Shown: in pieces, positions 41,251 to 46,672 of the stretch
Position numbering within the stretch: position 1 is the stretch's first letter
Layout: every line of letters starts with the position of its first letter
NCBI RefSeq assembly: GCF_947500325.1
Contig: NZ_CANMRQ010000002.1
Span: forward strand, 186,001-250,000
Direction of reading: 5' to 3'
DNA from: an uncultured Lacinutrix sp.
GTDB lineage: Bacteria > Bacteroidota > Bacteroidia > Flavobacteriales > Flavobacteriaceae
DNA: 64,000 nucleotides
Notes under the pieces: generated by a model
The model's input: the letters and a program-made list of their open reading frames with translations, nothing else
Told to the model about the DNA's origin: nothing
Database searches by the model: none
Program-made: the position numbers and the translations under genes

Positions 41251-41682
41251 ATGTCATTTTCAGATTTATTTGATAGCGGATTTAAAAAGCGTAATGAAGA
41301 CCATTTTGCAGCCATAGTTAGAGTGGCAATGGATGATGGAATTATTACCGATGATGAGAAAGCGTTTTTAGACCGTTTGGCGCGTAATTTAGAGATTAGT
41401 GAGGCTAATTATGCTGAGATTTTAAAAAATTATCAGTCGCATCCAATTAATCCTCCAACATCTTACGATAGACGTTTAGAGCGTTTATTCGATTTATCTC
41501 GTATGGTTTATGTAGATCATATTAAAGGTGATCACGAAGAGGTTTTATTAAGAAAAATAGCTGTTGGTTTAGGTTTTAATCCTGAAAATGCAAAGTATGT
41601 TGTAGATAAAGCATTAACTTTAGTTAGTAACGGTGTTGATTTAGATACTTTTATTGAAGAAGTTAAACAAATGAATAGATAG
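41251..41682 (+). CDS. TerB-like tellurite-resistance-fold protein
   Basis: A 143-residue all-helical acidic protein with the TerB pattern: MDDGIITDDEKAFLDRLARN near residue 30 (acidic metal-binding type loop) and a second related block VYVDHIKGDHEEVLLRKIAV. Bacterial TerB-like domains occur in stress and envelope-associated complexes and rarely indicate real tellurite resistance on their own. It is a single gene with its own promoter box and a terminator shared with the convergent histidine kinase gene. Confidence 0.8.
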   Translation: MSFSDLFDSGFKKRNEDHFAAIVRVAMDDGIITDDEKAFLDRLARNLEISEANYAEILKNYQSHPINPPTSYDRRLERLFDLSRMVYVDHIKGDHEEVLLRKIAVGLGFNPENAKYVVDKALTLVSNGVDLDTFIEEVKQMNR

Positions 41683-41696
41683 TATATTTATACTAT

Positions 41697-41733
41697 AAAA
41701 AAAAGCAAGCTTTAATTAGCTTGCTTTTTTTTT
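41697..41733. terminator. Bidirectional terminator overlapping the kinase stop codon
   Basis: GCAAGCT (41705-41711), loop TTAATT (41712-41717), AGCTTGC (41718-41724), flanked by A8 and T8 runs. The loop contains the stop codon of the convergent kinase gene and one arm encodes its last residues. Confidence 0.85.
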
Positions 41734-43235
41734 ATCAAATATTTAATTTTTCTTAAGAGCACATCTTTATCATATGGCTTTCCTAAATAACTGTTTATTC
41801 TTCTTTGTTTACAATATTGTTCTTCTTCTTTAGAAGGATGTTTAGATAAGATCATTATTGGAATTTGCTTAAAATTTTCAAAATCTGAATGTCTTATATA
41901 ACGTGCAGTATCCAAACCGTCCATTGTTGGCAGTTTAAGGTTAAAAATAGCGATATCGAATGGTTGTTTATGAAGTTCTTCTACAACGTCGTCTCCTGTT
42001 TCTACTATTACAACATCGAATTTTTTAGACTTACTTACACTCTCTAAAAATATAGCTTGATCTCTTTTTGAAGGTTCAGCCAAAAGAATTTTAAATTCAT
42101 AATTAGCTGTTGTTTTATTAGTTTTTGTAATATGCTTATCTTCTTTTTGATTTTTGTCAATTTCAAAATCTAAAGTAACAGTAAAGGTTGTGCCTTCACC
42201 TAACGTACTATTAACCTCAATAGTTCCATCTAGTGCATTTACTAATTCTTTAACAATGGCAAGACCTAAACCAGAACCATCATTTCTTATTTTATTACTT
42301 ACTTGGTAAAAACTTTTATAAATAACTTCTAGCTGATCTTGTTCAATACCAATACCAGTGTCTGTAATACTAAATTGAATAGTAGCTTTATCTTTAGTTA
42401 ATGTTTTACATACTACATTTAAATCTATACTACCTTGTTCTGTGAATTTTATGGCATTACCAATAAGATTACTAGCTATTTGAGCTAATCTGTATTTATC
42501 TGCAATAACATATTTAGGGCATTTTTCATCAATTTTATAATTGAGTTTTAATCCTTTTTTCTCACATTTTTTTGTGTATATGCTTATAATTTCGTCGAAC
42601 TCATTTAATAAATTATAACGTATAGAATTGATAGTGAAATGACCAGATTCAATTTTAGAAATATCTAAAATTTCATTAATCATAACTCTTAGTTTTTCAT
42701 TTGTATTCTTAATTATATTCAGATTATAACGTTGACTTTGCTCTAAATTTGAGTCTTCTAATAATGCTGTAAAACCACTTATTGTATTTACAGGCATTCT
42801 TATTGCATGAGTGAAGTTAGCAATAAAGTCATCTTTAAAAGCTTCCTTTTCTTTTAGTAAATAATTAATATGGTAATAAAGTTGCGATTTTATTTCTGCT
42901 TCATTTCTAAGCTGCGCGACTTTTTGGTATAGTATATATTGTTCTGTTAAATCTTGAAAAACGAAAACTGCATGTTCATCCTCTGTATTTAAAATGCCAT
43001 CTACAGTTCGTGTGTTTTTACCAATAGTTAGATTAATGCAATCAAAATTATATTGCTTATTTGTGGTATTTAATAAAGGGATAATAGTATCAAAAAAAGG
43101 ATGTAAATCACTTAAGTGTTTTCCTTTACTATCAATAAACAAATCAGATTCAGAGTCAATTATGATACCTTGTTTGTTAATTAAGAGTATTTGGTTTGTT
43201 TGTTTTTTGTGAAAAAAATTGTAGTTAGTAAGCAT
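41712..43235 (-). CDS. Hybrid sensor histidine kinase with degenerate receiver
   Basis: A 507-residue soluble protein: PAS-like N-terminus (HPFFDTIIPLL; QDLTEQYILYQ), HisKA around residues 135-200 with FIANFTHAIRMP (phospho-His143), HATPase_c (N box SNLIGNAIKF, DTGIGI, GSGLGLAI, all intact) and a receiver domain from about 383. Two key residues are changed: the acidic residue after the phospho-His is Ala144, and the receiver phospho-acceptor is Asn432 in DIAIFNLKLPTMDG; one residue of the acidic pair is also altered (LLAEPS). ATP binding should remain, phosphotransfer through this receiver should not. It is a diverged tandem duplicate of the next kinase and ends in a terminator. Likely signalling inside the small-GTPase cassette. 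Confidence 0.9.
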   Translation of the reverse strand: MLTNYNFFHKKQTNQILLINKQGIIIDSESDLFIDSKGKHLSDLHPFFDTIIPLLNTTNKQYNFDCINLTIGKNTRTVDGILNTEDEHAVFVFQDLTEQYILYQKVAQLRNEAEIKSQLYYHINYLLKEKEAFKDDFIANFTHAIRMPVNTISGFTALLEDSNLEQSQRYNLNIIKNTNEKLRVMINEILDISKIESGHFTINSIRYNLLNEFDEIISIYTKKCEKKGLKLNYKIDEKCPKYVIADKYRLAQIASNLIGNAIKFTEQGSIDLNVVCKTLTKDKATIQFSITDTGIGIEQDQLEVIYKSFYQVSNKIRNDGSGLGLAIVKELVNALDGTIEVNSTLGEGTTFTVTLDFEIDKNQKEDKHITKTNKTTANYEFKILLAEPSKRDQAIFLESVSKSKKFDVVIVETGDDVVEELHKQPFDIAIFNLKLPTMDGLDTARYIRHSDFENFKQIPIMILSKHPSKEEEQYCKQRRINSYLGKPYDKDVLLRKIKYLIKKKQAN

Positions 43236-43316
43236 TAATTAAGGAACAAGCGATATTTATTATACTAAATAAATATACACTTTTTTTTATAATAGTATAG
43301 ATTAGAGGAAAAGTGC

Positions 43317-44843
43317 TTATTCTAAGTGTTTTGCAATTATTTCTAAAAGCTGATTTTCATCAAAAGGTTTTTTCAACACCTCATTAATTCCTGCCTTTTT
43401 ATATAGTTTTAAATCTTCTTTAAAAACTTTAGCAGTCATAGCAATAATTGGTACTTTTCTTTGATGAGGTTCAGGAAGTTTTCTTATTTGTCTAGCTATT
43501 TCGTCTCCTCTATGTTCTTTAAGTTTTATATCCATTAAAACAAGATCTACTTCATTATCATAGTCTACCATTCTAGTTAGTACTTCTTCTGGTTTAGAAA
43601 CAATATCTAAGAAAAATTGACCACGAGTTGCAAGTATTTTAAGTACGGATAATTGAATGATTTCTGAATCCTCTACAAGTAAAATATTATATTTTTTAGA
43701 AGGATTAAACACAACTTTAGTTGCGTCTATTTCTTTAGTAACTTTTAATGAAGGATTTGAAATGAAATTTATATTTGTAGAAAAAGTTGACCCTTTACCA
43801 TAGTTTGAAACGACCTTAATTTTACTATTTGTTAATTCTACCAAATATTTTACAATAGCTAAACCTAAACCAGTTCCTTTGTACGATTCATTTTTATTTA
43901 CTTGATTGAAACTGGTAAAAATATCTTCAAAATTTTCTTCTTTAATACCTATTCCTGTATCTATAATTTCAAAATGTATACTAGCTTTTTGTGCTCTTAT
44001 TTGGTTTAGAGAAACATTAAATGTTACACTACCATTATGTGTAAATTTAATAGCATTATCTAATAAATTAGTAATTACCTGTCTTAAACGTTTAGCGTCA
44101 CCTCCAATAACTTCTGGTAATTTATGATCGTAATTATAGTTGAACTCTAAACCTTTTTGCTTAGCCTTAATCGTGTAATTAAATTTTATTTCGTCTAGCA
44201 GTTTTTTAAAATTAAAAGGCTCGATACTTAAATCTAGTTTACCCGATTCAATTTTAGAAATATCTAAAATGTCATCAATCATTTTCTTTAAAAAACTAGA
44301 AGTAGAGTTAAGAATTTGTATATAATCCTTCTGTTTTGGGTCTAATTTTGTTTTACTTAAAATATTAGAAAATGTAAGTATACCGGTTAAAGGATCACGT
44401 AATTCATGACTAAAATTAGCAATAAATGTATTTTTAAAAGCCTCTTTTTCTTTTAAATAAGTATTTTTAAGTTCAAGGATTTGAGAATTAATAACCGATT
44501 CATTTCTTACTTGAGCAGTCGTTTGGTAATTATTATAGTGCGTCGTTAAATCTTGAATTACTAATAAGGGCTTTTTATTATTTTTAAAGGTTTGTAAAAT
44601 AATATCTGATATGATTTCTTTAGATTCAATATTTAGATGTACACATGAAAATATAGTTTCTTTTTCTATACTTTCTCCTAAAATAGGAATAATGGTTTCA
44701 AAGAAAGGGTGTATGTCAGAAATGTTCTTTTTCTCAAAATTTTCAAATAAGCCATTGTCAGATTCTAAAACTAATCCATTAGGCTCTAATACAGAGTATT
44801 GTATTACTGGTTTTGTGTATTTTTGTTTGTATTCTTCGAGCAT
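43317..44843 (-). CDS. Hybrid sensor histidine kinase/response regulator
   Basis: A 508-residue soluble hybrid kinase: PAS-like N-terminus (HPFFETIIPIL; IQDLTTHYNNY), coiled coil, HisKA with FIANFSHELRDPLTGIL (phospho-His146), HATPase_c (TNLLDNAIKF, DTGIGI, GTGLGLAI) and a complete receiver (ILLVEDSE, phospho-acceptor Asp438 in DLVLMDIKL, Lys in LKKPFDE). No membrane segment, so input must come from the PAS-like region or a partner. The gap to the small GTPase gene upstream is 20 bases, indicating one transcript. The shared N-terminal pattern with the downstream kinase shows a tandem duplication. Confidence 0.92.
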   Translation of the reverse strand: MLEEYKQKYTKPVIQYSVLEPNGLVLESDNGLFENFEKKNISDIHPFFETIIPILGESIEKETIFSCVHLNIESKEIISDIILQTFKNNKKPLLVIQDLTTHYNNYQTTAQVRNESVINSQILELKNTYLKEKEAFKNTFIANFSHELRDPLTGILTFSNILSKTKLDPKQKDYIQILNSTSSFLKKMIDDILDISKIESGKLDLSIEPFNFKKLLDEIKFNYTIKAKQKGLEFNYNYDHKLPEVIGGDAKRLRQVITNLLDNAIKFTHNGSVTFNVSLNQIRAQKASIHFEIIDTGIGIKEENFEDIFTSFNQVNKNESYKGTGLGLAIVKYLVELTNSKIKVVSNYGKGSTFSTNINFISNPSLKVTKEIDATKVVFNPSKKYNILLVEDSEIIQLSVLKILATRGQFFLDIVSKPEEVLTRMVDYDNEVDLVLMDIKLKEHRGDEIARQIRKLPEPHQRKVPIIAMTAKVFKEDLKLYKKAGINEVLKKPFDENQLLEIIAKHLE

Positions 44844-44863
44844 TTTTGCTGACTTTGATTTTT

Positions 44864-45355
44864 CTAAAGAAGCGATTCAGCTAATTTAGAAAAAAGAAAA
44901 TCAACTTGGTTTCCTGTTTTTGCACTAACGTATAAATCCGTTAAACGACCAAAATTATCGTTGTTCTCCTTTAAAAAAGCTTTTGTTACTAAATCGTTCT
45001 TGTTTCCAACAACTTTTATAGGCGTATTTTTTTGTTTTTCTTTTAAGAAATCTATTTCAGCTTGAAGGTTTTCATATGTAGCTGGTCTAGTTACATCGTA
45101 AACATAAATAAAAGCATTGGTACCTATTAAATAAGATAGTCGTGTATTATTTATATCATCGTTGCCTTCTAAATCCCATATAACGAGAGATACGTCTGTA
45201 TCCTTTTCTGGAATTTCTACATTCTTTTTAAAGATGTGTACTCCAATAGTTACTTTGTAGTTTTCAGAAAACGTGTTTTCTACAAAACGTCTAATTAGGG
45301 AAGATTTTCCAACACCAAAATGACCTAGTAAAACAATTTTTTTTGAGATTTTCAT
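44864..45355 (-). CDS. Rab/Ras-like small GTPase
   Basis: A 163-residue Ras-superfamily G domain: P-loop GHFGVGKSS (residues 11-19), switch-I Thr36 in VTIGVH, G3 WDLEGND (Asp61, Gly64; the catalytic Gln position is Asn65), G4 NKND (118-121) and G5 SAK (144-146). The WDxxG form is Rab-like rather than MglA-like, and there is no C-terminal prenylation motif. It carries its own -7 box and is followed after 20 bases by two hybrid histidine kinases; two coiled-coil genes precede it. This suggests a GTP-switch coupled to phosphorelay signalling. Function in the cell is unknown. Confidence 0.92.
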   Translation of the reverse strand: MKISKKIVLLGHFGVGKSSLIRRFVENTFSENYKVTIGVHIFKKNVEIPEKDTDVSLVIWDLEGNDDINNTRLSYLIGTNAFIYVYDVTRPATYENLQAEIDFLKEKQKNTPIKVVGNKNDLVTKAFLKENNDNFGRLTDLYVSAKTGNQVDFLFSKLAESLL

Positions 45356-45448
45356 TACTGAAATATACTTTTATTTTTATAGAAATTAAGGGTTTCGGTA
45401 TATAAATTTATTACTGAAATATTTCTATGTATATGGTTAAGAGTAAGC

Positions 45449-45456
45449 CAAAAATA
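45449..45456 (-). promoter_or_regulatory. -7 box of the GTPase-kinase operon
   Basis: Minus-strand TATTTTTG, immediately after the hairpin that follows the preceding gene; leader of roughly 90 bases. Confidence 0.5.
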
Positions 45457-45458
45457 GT

Positions 45459-45484
45459 AAAAGACACATAATTATATGTCTTTT
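45459..45484 (-). terminator. Hairpin after the coiled-coil gene
   Basis: AAAAGACAcATA and TATaTGTCTTTT pair with one mismatch; the tail is T-rich but interrupted, so termination may be partial. Confidence 0.45.
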
Positions 45485-45497
45485 ATAGAATTTATTT

Positions 45498-46304
45498 TTA
45501 CTTAAAATACTCTTTAAGCTTTTTAGAGAAAACAACTTTGTCGTCAATATCCTCTTTGTTAATATAATTTTGTGCGAAATCTAGTAGCCTATCTTCTAAT
45601 CTACTTTTAAAAATAGCATTATATGCACCTGAAATTACTACGGCAATATAATATGATGAGAAATTTTGTAGGTGAATATGAAACAAATCGTACTCAATAT
45701 ATTGTAATTCTTGTTCCTCTTTTTCAAAAGCATCTTCAGCAAAACTTTTAATAGCTGTGAGCATTCCAGCCACCATATCTTCATCAATTGCTTGTGTTTT
45801 AGAATATTCAGAAATAATTAAACCAGAACCTTTTTCTATAACCATGATTTGCTCAATCATAGGTTGTGCTAATTCTTGTAATATTAAATCACCTTCACTA
45901 ACTCCTGTTTTTTTAGATTTAAATTTTCTTAAGAAACCTTGAAAAGAGAAAGTAGAGTTTATTTTATTATTTATCTGCTCAGATAAAATTCTCATTTCTT
46001 GTTGTACATATTTTTTTATCATCTTTCCAATTATTGGAAATAATGCTTCTACAACGGCATCTTGAGAGTTTTTAATTTCAGATTTTAATGTTTCAGTTAT
46101 TGTTGGTCCTAAAGTTTTAGGCATTTCTGAAACAAAATCTTCTAATTTGTCATCTATAATAGGATTAACACGTTCAGATAATTTTTTTTGTTTTTCAAGA
46201 ATTTCTTCTAAAACCTTGAGTTTTTTCTCAACTTTTGCGGCATACTCTCTTTCATCTGTTAATAAGATGTCTTTTAAAATAGAAAGTTTTTCGTCTTGAT
46301 TCAT
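45498..46304 (-). CDS. Coiled-coil protein with possible longin/roadblock-like C-terminus
   Basis: A 268-residue soluble protein. The first half is coiled coil and helix (KVEKKLKVLEEILEKQKKLS, VQQEMRILSEQINNKINSTF). The second half (about residues 145-250) alternates strand and helix: IMVIEKGSGLIISEYSKTQA, EDMVAGMLTAIKSFAEDAF, YIEYDLFHIHLQNFSSYYIA, VVISG. This order resembles the longin/roadblock folds that bind small GTPases. That assignment is mine by pattern and needs a profile search. The gene lies between a second coiled-coil gene (14-base gap) and the small GTPase gene, the right place for a GTPase regulator or effector. Confidence 0.7.
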   Translation of the reverse strand: MNQDEKLSILKDILLTDEREYAAKVEKKLKVLEEILEKQKKLSERVNPIIDDKLEDFVSEMPKTLGPTITETLKSEIKNSQDAVVEALFPIIGKMIKKYVQQEMRILSEQINNKINSTFSFQGFLRKFKSKKTGVSEGDLILQELAQPMIEQIMVIEKGSGLIISEYSKTQAIDEDMVAGMLTAIKSFAEDAFEKEEQELQYIEYDLFHIHLQNFSSYYIAVVISGAYNAIFKSRLEDRLLDFAQNYINKEDIDDKVVFSKKLKEYFK

Positions 46305-46318
46305 GGCGTGAGAATCAA

Positions 46319-46672
46319 TTAATTACTTATTTTCTCGCCAAGTTTTATAAGTAAATCACCAAAAAGTCTGCGGTCTAATTTTTTATCATCTAAAGCTTCG
46401 GCTTTATCATCTAGAGTGTTTTCAAGCTCAGTAATTCTAATATTAATATCTGTACTAAGGTTGTCTATATTTTGAAGTAATTCAGCTTTAACATCATCTA
46501 TCAAGTTCTCAAGTTCTTTTTTCTTACTTAAGATATCTTGTTTTACAGCTTCAAACTCATGATTGTATTCTTGTATGTTTTCACCAAAAATAAGTTGTTT
46601 AATTGCATCAATTTTAGATGATGGATCTGTTGCAATTATATCTTCGGTTTTGCTTTTATCGTTCTTTGCCAT
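46319..46672 (-). CDS. Small acidic coiled-coil protein
   Basis: A 117-residue soluble protein, almost wholly coiled coil from about residue 35 to 95 (FEAVKQDILSKKKELENLID, INIRITELENTLDDKAEALD), ending DRRLFGDLLIKLGEKISN. No enzymatic motif. It sits 59 bases after fbp and 14 bases before the larger coiled-coil gene. The two probably interact (inference). Proteins of this kind next to fbp may get mislabelled as bisphosphatase; this one contains nothing of that enzyme. Confidence 0.75.
   Translation of the reverse strand: MAKNDKSKTEDIIATDPSSKIDAIKQLIFGENIQEYNHEFEAVKQDILSKKKELENLIDDVKAELLQNIDNLSTDINIRITELENTLDDKAEALDDKKLDRRLFGDLLIKLGEKISN

Follow-up and report, generated by a model that had tools for sequence, protein, structure and literature searches.

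The five minus-strand genes behind fbp at positions 41712–46672 of the window (the whole 64,000-nucleotide stretch of DNA analyzed here, from a marine Lacinutrix) fit a Group 1 Rup GTPase system, and the conserved domain encoded by the second of these genes looks roadblock/longin-like in profile comparisons and in its predicted fold. As described in 2014 (PMC4316618), a Group 1 Rup system consists of a GTPase, a coiled-coil protein, a domain listed as unknown that is often fused to OmpA, and an output protein with an invariant Gln, and Bacteroidetes are among its holders; this bacterial signaling family has received little study. The original prediction, which knew of no described pathway of this composition and proposed that it may be new, is overturned by that description. 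The gene models themselves were exactly as predicted, with open reading frames of 117, 268, 163, 508, and 507 amino acids. Starting 59 bases behind fbp, they encode the coiled-coil protein CC (46319–46672), the roadblock/longin-like protein RBL (45498–46304), the Group 1 Rup-type, Rab-like GTPase (44864–45355), and the hybrid kinases HK1 (43317–44843) and HK2 (41712–43235). The ORF ends give the predicted spacings of 14 (CC–RBL), 20 (GTPase–HK1), and 81 bases (HK1–HK2), and an additional gap of 142 bases between the RBL and GTPase genes.

The 163-residue GTPase is matched by the Pfam Ras model (4.8e-31), and K17, T36, D61, G64, N118, K119, D121, S144, and A145 are all present. Because the nearest solved relatives of its family profile are Rabs (Sec4, 6.2e-35), its designation as Rab-type holds by similarity, but its G3 motif, WDLEGND, is abnormal for a Rab, with Asn65 at the position of the catalytic Gln61 of Ras. 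Rab GTPases have WDTAGQE as G3 and carry C-terminal prenylation cysteines. The cassette GTPase has neither of these hallmarks and ends in ESLL. A G3 that keeps DxxG (here D61 and G64) and lacks the Gln is shared with the Ras/Rab-like GTPases of Group 1 Rup, to which the Rab, Ran, Ras, and Rho families are very similar (PMC4316618). Across 123 distinct GTPases of the family, the Asp and the Gly are each present in 123, and the Gln occurs in 13, which form one group of relatives that departs from the Rup pattern. The invariant Asp also separates the family from MglA, whose G3 is TVPGQ or GTPGQ, with the Asp replaced and the Gln kept (PMC4316618); membership of the window GTPase in MglA is thereby ruled out.

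RBL (268 amino acids) has a helical N-terminus, and its putative roadblock/longin-like domain spans residues ~147–250. Pfam and NCBIfam scans of RBL gave no match above the curated cut-offs, searches of Pfam and of PDB sequences with the RBL family did not find roadblock, and the RBL profile returned four matches among PDB sequences, all unrelated and with E-values of 0.15 or worse. Fold and profile–profile comparisons point to the relationship. Specifically, the AlphaFold2 model of the C-terminus has a beta-beta-alpha-beta-beta-beta-alpha arrangement, as sought for a roadblock/longin fold, with moderate model confidence (mean pLDDT of 64 for RBL, with C-terminal blocks mostly at 70–85 and one at 55). 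Foldseek searches with this model retrieved the AP-sigma longin (4.8e-5), MglB (5.1e-4), and Mon1-Ccz1 (6.1e-4), with moderate TM-scores of ~0.25–0.35 by query in most rows. In hhalign, RBL aligned with Robl_LC7 proteins (19 of the 20 fetched loci, as L198 yielded no usable frame and was left out) with a P-value of 2.4e-5, which none of 300 column shuffles equaled; the OmpA-fused RBL rows alone gave a weak alignment (P-value = 0.0014). The longin/roadblock-like C-terminus anticipated for the 268-residue protein is thus corroborated by topology, Foldseek, and hhalign. A search of the same genome with PF03259 (Robl_LC7) gave no match at E <= 1e-6, which leaves RBL as the sole candidate identified for a roadblock protein. 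The pairing of a small GTPase with a roadblock-fold partner is shared with MglA/MglB, although RBL, unlike MglB, is linked to the roadblock family by profile–profile and fold similarity and not by a match to the Robl_LC7 model.

Judging from context, the RBL domain would be the one listed as unknown in PMC4316618. In both cases a conserved-domain protein is encoded adjacent to the GTPase, and in Group 1 Rup it often has a transmembrane helix and OmpA. The RBL of the window is instead short and soluble and has neither a membrane helix nor OmpA; a short form (~280 amino acids) was also found in a genome from another order of the same class (G506). Outside the class, all 12 RBL matches in 11 genomes of the phylum lie in open frames of 598–738 amino acids. 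The one of these frames scanned with Pfam, that of locus L097, has OmpA and BON domains; a Nostoc locus (L194) matches across 94 per cent of L097, and the frame of a Mesorhizobium locus (L195) is annotated as OmpA family. Matches occurred in 56 plasmid records, and among the 20 listed, the first 4 match the N-terminal half and 16 the OmpA region only.

CC (117 amino acids) had nothing above the curated cut-offs of Pfam and NCBIfam. Judged from its sequence, it is a putative coiled coil, which would make it the counterpart of the adjacent coiled-coil cytoplasmic protein of Group 1 Rup. It is present in 37/37 loci L041–L077, in 80/80 named loci, and in 9 of the 11 distant loci L097–L107, being undetected in L104 and L107.

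HK1 and HK2 each contain HisKA, HATPase_c, and Response_reg domains by Pfam. Their input is a PAS fold, and no Pfam PAS model matched either protein at E <= 1. No strongly hydrophobic segment is present (19-residue maxima of 1.46 and 1.11), and the prediction of tandem hybrid kinases with soluble, PAS-like inputs therefore stands as to the inputs; the two kinases are not equivalent, however, as HK2 is degenerate. The PAS-fold region of HK1 (44454–44843, minus strand) holds near-invariant Q15, G23, D80, Y103, and Q111 and is a candidate GTPase-binding module. As in Group 1 Rup, the output is a histidine kinase or another protein, with a conserved N-terminal region that includes a Gln, for which Q111 and Q15 are the candidates. 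Q111 is conserved in 96/96 single and 28/28 tandem kinases (124/124 distinct full-length sequences), and Q15 in 123/124. A Flavobacteriaceae N-domain HMM matched 0/11 of the distant loci L097–L107, and the Q111 shared by these loci rests on an alignment at 7–13 per cent identity. One row (L106:4764-5846), evidently in the wrong frame because it had no Pfam match and was out of register, was disregarded. It is possible that Q111 supplies the missing catalytic Gln to the GTPase in trans, but we do not favor this reading because all 11 kinases in the set that belong to Gln-bearing GTPases keep Q111. Four Flavobacteriaceae genomes carry two GTPases, each directly preceding its own PAS-region protein, and in L063, L064, L067, and L074 one of these proteins is 198–200 amino acids long and has no kinase; this pairing points to the PAS region as the partner of the GTPase.

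HK2, seen only around Lacinutrix and Bizionia, is a paralog of HK1 (37 per cent identity) in which the receiver Asp is replaced by Asn, a second acidic residue is lost, and the H-box reads HAIR instead of HELR. HK1 has an intact H-box His and receiver Asp. The receiver substitution occurs in 14/14 HK2 copies, and the HK1 partner retains its Asp in 14/14. Such a substitution is not confined to HK2, because 24 of the 96 single kinases likewise have another residue in place of the receiver Asp (one further row is truncated); the kinase of L057 also lacks the ATPase G-box motifs. A recent origin of HK2 by copying of HK1 is not shown, as HK2 branches outside the HK1-holding clade, on a long stem. 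HK2 might simply be decaying, as a redundant tandem paralog heading to loss. Its branches are generally longer than those of HK1, the L120 locus has a single kinase, and HK2 has lost the H-box His in L114 and L115. We hold this reading only tentatively, at well below even odds, because HK2 forms one clade (support 100/99) with open frames of 501–517 amino acids across Lacinutrix, Bizionia, and other relatives, keeps the ATPase Asn together with Q15, D80, and Q111 in 14/14 copies, and in L045, where HK1 has lost its H-box His, carries the sole donor His of the two kinases.

Our preferred model, to which we assign a probability of roughly 60 per cent, is that the state of the GTPase is set by RBL and CC and that the kinases are gated through their PAS domains, on which the GTPase acts. 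The content, order, and co-occurrence of the genes, their domain identities, and the residue losses are observed; the interactions and the direction of signaling are inferred as follows. The cassette would be a Flavobacteriaceae form of the Group 1 Rup system. The divergent roadblock-like RBL would assemble into one complex with the coiled-coil CC, and as a GAP or a GEF (compare MglB for MglA) this complex would determine the nucleotide state of the Rab-like GTPase. In one of its states, the GTPase would dock on the N-terminal PAS domain and signaling helix of the hybrid kinases and switch their autokinase/phosphatase balance. HK1 would have both kinase activity and a functional receiver, and HK2, a paralog with a receiver that can presumably no longer be phosphorylated, is probably its partner or modulator; the phosphate would then pass to a phosphotransfer protein or regulator encoded elsewhere. 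According to PMC4316618, no member of Rup had been experimentally characterized at that time, and we found no later characterization in the open-licence PMC literature.

The signal may also run the other way, with the kinases sensing through PAS and passing the signal via RBL and CC to the GTPase, which would itself be the output and act on the cell envelope or polarity. This is the direction proposed for actinobacterial conservons (Cvn), in which a small GTPase, a roadblock protein, and a histidine kinase are likewise combined (PMC4316618, PMC13343842). Conservons resemble the cassette as operons of a histidine kinase, a roadblock protein, a small GTPase, and a further protein, but their GTPase belongs to MglA group 2, their CvnB is an MglB homolog, and their kinases are membrane-bound (PMC4316618); CvnC and an LPxR kinase are further conservon hallmarks. 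In the cassette, the kinases are hybrids with no strongly hydrophobic segment, and the GTPase is a Rup one whose G3 is not GTPGQ; the genome has no Robl_LC7 match at E <= 1e-6. The replaced receiver Asp in a quarter of the single kinases (24/96) suggests that several lineages can do without phosphorylation of the receiver, as this direction would allow, whereas the HisKA His is conserved in all 96. The variety of outputs beside such GTPases (hybrid kinases, a kinase with an NtrC-type regulator in L101, sigma-54 activators in L097 and L099, and an adenylate/guanylate cyclase in L195) is also easier to explain with the GTPase upstream, and we regard the reverse direction as rather unlikely.

The preferred model treats the cassette as one unit. 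Among 199 sampled Flavobacteriaceae genomes, the GTPase was found in 43 (E <= 1e-15), all 43 of which have RBL, and 43 of the 46 genomes with RBL have the GTPase. CC, RBL, GTPase, and kinase genes are grouped in 42 of these 43 genomes and in 78/80 named loci, and the cassette is hence conserved in other genera of the family. Both the conservation and the fold on which the original prediction had staked itself came out in its favor. In the three phylum-level genomes checked (G211, G322, and G230), a family GTPase lies on another contig; in the first two it is outside the 15 kb fetched around RBL, and for G230 the neighborhood was not fetched. The GTPase is on the strand opposite to RBL in four of the nine distant loci with a GTPase hit. 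Among weak RBL matches, L079 is apparently a decayed copy, sited between fbp and a TerB gene, and L080 gave no support.

The region between the RBL and GTPase genes contains a -7-like box (TATTTTTG, 45449–45456, minus strand), a candidate promoter of the GTPase–kinase half. Its pattern TAnnTT(T/C)G is conserved in 7/7 aligned Lacinutrix-type intergenic regions (L116, where the two frames overlap and leave no such region, was left out), which makes the predicted second promoter plausible. No -33 element was seen by eye, and a scan for sigma-70 promoters, a model that leaves out this promoter type, showed no excess (32 found; mean of 32.3 in shuffles). A 12-pair hairpin, a possible terminator, lies at 45458–45485 on the minus strand (MFE of -12 kcal/mol, z of -4.03 for 45430–45500) and is poorly conserved in sequence among relatives. 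This gap with its box and hairpin, the separation of the two halves in the 43rd GTPase-bearing genome (G158), and the retention of CC with a divergent RBL in G182, where no Ras-like GTPase was found, would suit two functionally separate units that are neighbors through shared history, but the co-occurrence in 43/43 genomes, the finding that, when each is extended to its first possible start, the RBL frame overlaps the GTPase frame in 70 of the 78 named loci with both, and the retention of both halves where they are unlinked make this very improbable.

Operons of FtsZ-like, OmpA, and GTPase genes (PMC2875224) were considered for their combination of OmpA and GTPase and set aside, as their diverged GTPase carries TxKD and they also encode VWA proteins. 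Eukaryotic Rabs with longin/roadblock partners (Mon1-Ccz1, AP sigma) are among the nearest known systems. Solved Rabs are nearest to the GTPase profile, and the RBL model matches both folds; they differ from the cassette in their catalytic Gln, their C-terminal cysteines, and their outputs, the linked output here being a two-component kinase. A bolder and distinctly improbable extension is that in Lacinutrix and Bizionia the GTPase gates a relay of two kinases, one contributing the kinase side only and the other the receiver side, and that the Rab and longin/roadblock partnership of eukaryotic membrane traffic was already present in bacteria as a signaling module, with Rup supplying a Rab-like GTPase, a regulator of longin/roadblock fold, and an effector of PAS type.

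Added here to the account in PMC4316618 are the roadblock/longin-like reading of the domain, the short soluble RBL, the PAS input of the kinases, and the degenerate second kinase in tandem. The roadblock reading was not found in print in the open-licence PMC literature. It provides a concrete candidate regulator for Rup GTPases, and the short version of the system in culturable Flavobacteriaceae, which has neither membrane nor OmpA parts, should suit biochemistry.

The five minus-strand open reading frames behind fbp were all confirmed, with the lengths and spacing first proposed: a coiled-coil protein, judged such from its sequence (CC; 117 aa, 46319..46672), a protein with a roadblock/longin-like C-terminus (RBL; 268 aa, 45498..46304), a GTPase (163 aa, 44864..45355), and two hybrid histidine kinases, HK1 (508 aa, 43317..44843) and HK2 (507 aa, 41712..43235). 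A gene for a TerB-like protein (143 aa, 41251-41682, plus strand) is convergent with this cassette. The GTPase matches the Pfam Ras model (4.8e-31) and both kinases match HisKA, HATPase_c, and Response_reg in a Pfam scan, while CC and RBL have no match above the cut-off in Pfam or NCBIfam. The window's genome contains a single match to the GTPase, five far weaker matches to the Ras model (the best at 7.9e-8), and no match to the roadblock model Robl_LC7 at E <= 1e-6.

The original prediction held that the cassette may represent a new pathway. According to the available part of one description, Group 1 Rup GTPases lack the G3 Gln and are found in several phyla, Bacteroidetes among them. Three neighbors are conserved: one coiled-coil protein, one protein whose unknown domain often precedes a membrane helix and OmpA, and a diguanylate cyclase/phosphodiesterase or histidine kinase output with an invariant Gln in its N-terminal region; no member had been characterized at that time (PMC4316618). 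Every one of these features that could be tested is present in the window. On the strength of these features, we file the cassette as a Group 1 Rup system and not as an undescribed pathway; what remains of the claim of novelty is a variant of a kind already known, though apparently uncharacterized.

Among 199 Flavobacteriaceae genomes, RBL was found in 46 (E <= 1e-3) and the GTPase in 43 (E <= 1e-15), all of them included in the 46. CC, RBL, GTPase, and kinase genes are adjacent, in that order, in 42 of the 46 (the window, 37 loci L041-L077, and loci L108, L109, L110, and L113). In five of these loci (L063, L064, L067, L074, and L075), a gene encoding only a PAS region lies within the order, accompanied in all but L075 by a second GTPase. 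In genome G158 the set is split: fbp and the TerB gene enclose CC-RBL, and GTPase-kinase is on a separate contig. In G086 the RBL match is doubtful and the GTPase was not found. No Ras-like GTPase was found in G182, whose locus holds CC and a divergent RBL (L078 7294-8560); in G062, an RBL remnant with two stops lies between fbp and the TerB gene (L079 4556-4924), and the GTPase was not found.

A scan of genome contigs confirmed 404 relatives, of which we kept the best 80 as named loci, some shared with the 199-genome sample. The four-gene order recurs in 78 of these best 80, the other two having only CC-RBL at the locus. A second kinase is present in 12 of the 78. Most named loci (60/80) are flanked by fbp directly upstream and TerB downstream; fbp alone flanks three, TerB alone two, and neither 15, although contig ends truncate some of the loci. 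When frames are read from their earliest possible start, those of RBL and the GTPase overlap in 70 of the 78 named loci (best 80 of 404) that contain both genes; in the window, 142 bases separate them. This gap contains an A+T-rich 12-pair hairpin on the minus strand (45458-45485; z -4.03) that differs in relatives, and a -7-like box kept in 7/7 aligned regions. Two transcripts for the cassette are plausible.

An AlphaFold2 model of RBL, built on a 38-row alignment, has a mean pLDDT of 64, with C-terminal blocks mostly at 70-85 and one at 55. Its C-terminus comprises helix 137-145, strands 149-157 and 163-168, helix 175-194, strands 202-205, 208-214, and 218-225, and helix 230-247. Nearly all of the 50 Foldseek matches listed are to what we take to be longin or roadblock folds, including AP sigma (4.8e-5), MglB (5.1e-4), Mon1-Ccz1 (6.1e-4), Rag GTPase chains, and Ykt6. 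TM-scores are mostly about 0.25-0.35 by query length and mostly 0.4-0.67 by the length of the single-domain targets. Ordinary sequence searches (Pfam, PDB) did not detect the similarity to roadblock proteins. As an independent line, a profile built from the RBL C-termini of 25 family rows and 11 OmpA-type rows was compared with 19 Bacteroidota Robl_LC7 proteins, giving a collinear alignment over 89 columns (probability 75.5, P 2.4e-5). The best of 300 column shuffles reached P 0.0046, six other profiles did no better than 0.0035, and reversing the profile gave 0.47; the family rows alone gave P 4.1e-5 over 44 columns and the OmpA-type rows alone only 0.0014. The available part of one study relates longin and roadblock domains, supports a kinship of longin with MglB, and describes GTPase binding as generally similar between the two (PMC3521125). 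The model and the profile alignment support the initial guess of a roadblock-like protein, and we read RBL as a probable divergent roadblock/longin protein. As far as literature searches show, this reading goes beyond the 2014 description.

Across the phylum, RBL was found in 14 of 395 genomes (E <= 1e-5): the window's own, one more of the family, G506 of another order of the same class, and 11 outside the class, which together give 12 matches, all within open frames 598-738 aa long. The G506 locus (L096 3937-7557) has the same cassette order, with a short RBL of ~280 aa and a kinase-receiver-Hpt protein as output. Among 11 distant loci (L097-L107, ten genomes), nine have a CC match and nine a GTPase match (same strand as RBL in five, opposite in four), and none matched the Flavobacteriaceae N-domain HMM. 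A family GTPase lies on another contig in each of the three genomes checked, G211 and G322 (RBL loci without GTPase) and G230. The L097 homolog of RBL, the only one scanned with Pfam, contains OmpA and BON. Peak hydropathy (19-residue mean) is 1.88-2.44 in six distant homologs; the window RBL peaks at 1.01 and the 80 named RBLs at 0.88-1.69. Next to the GTPase, L101 encodes a kinase and then an NtrC-type regulator, and L103 and L107 encode kinases. Sigma-54 activators lie directly behind the GTPase in L097 and L099 (Pfam), with L098 alike; the available part of PMC4316618 does not name this output. A Nostoc plasmid carries CC, an L097-like protein, the GTPase, and an 822-aa output, and on a Mesorhizobium plasmid a CC-like protein is accompanied by one of the OmpA family, one with the annotation 'Rab family GTPase', and an adenylate/guanylate cyclase.

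Collecting 135 GTPases gave 123 distinct ones, none of which deviates at the G3 Asp and Gly, the P-loop Lys, NKxD, or SA; the T36 position holds T in 115 and S in eight. The closest solved relatives by profile are Rabs, so the label 'Rab-like' is fair, although the G3 motif departs from that of Rabs. The Gln61 position (Ras numbering; Asn65 in the window) is N in 45, H in 30, T in 14, Q in 13, and other residues in the rest. The 13 Gln-bearing GTPases come from Algibacter, Tamlana, Hyunsoonleella, Flaviramulus, a Winogradskyella MAG, and one further bacterium. Gln-bearing GTPases pair with kinases whose receiver Asp is replaced by S, A, or T in 11/11 cases in the set (L128, L129, L130, L134, L135, L138, L144, L147, L148, L151, and L171); because these lineages are related, the association possibly reflects one event.

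In a tree of 58 kinases picked from 124, the HK2 sequences form a single clade (100/99), and their branches are in general the longer ones. This clade lies outside the one holding HK1, so the tree does not show that HK2 derives from HK1, an origin that the long stem of HK2 may obscure. In all 14 distinct tandem copies, the HK2 receiver has Asn for the phospho-acceptor Asp and has lost the second acidic residue, and the HK1 partner keeps its Asp (14/14). Silent receivers are common in the family, since 24 of 96 single kinases also carry another residue at the position of the receiver Asp (S 12, K 7, A 4, T 1; one row incomplete). The H-box of the window HK2 reads HAIR, and in L114 and L115 HK2 has lost the HisKA His. 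In L045 (7966-11015), this His is lost from HK1 and kept in HK2, whose receiver Asp is Asn; the pair is a possible split relay.

Pfam did not detect PAS in the HK1 N-terminus. Its model (pLDDT 91.9; strands, helices, three strands, and a long helix) matches almost exclusively PAS or LOV proteins among the 50 Foldseek matches listed (best E 5.8e-4, TM ~0.55), in agreement with the PAS-like inputs originally proposed. Q15, G23, D80, Y103, and Q111 are conserved in 47-48 of 48 aligned rows, and all 124 distinct full-length kinases have Q111 and D80, while 123 have Q15. Q111 sits within long helix 100-129 of the model, and Gln occupies its position in 11 of 12 rows of an alignment that includes distant outputs (identity of the distant rows 7-13 per cent), the twelfth being the misread frame of L106. 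In L063, L064, L067, and L074, each of the two GTPases is followed by its own PAS-region protein, the first of which is 198-200 aa long and without a kinase. This pairing, seen in all four genomes with two GTPases, makes the PAS region a candidate for the part bound by the GTPase, and is the best clue to that part.
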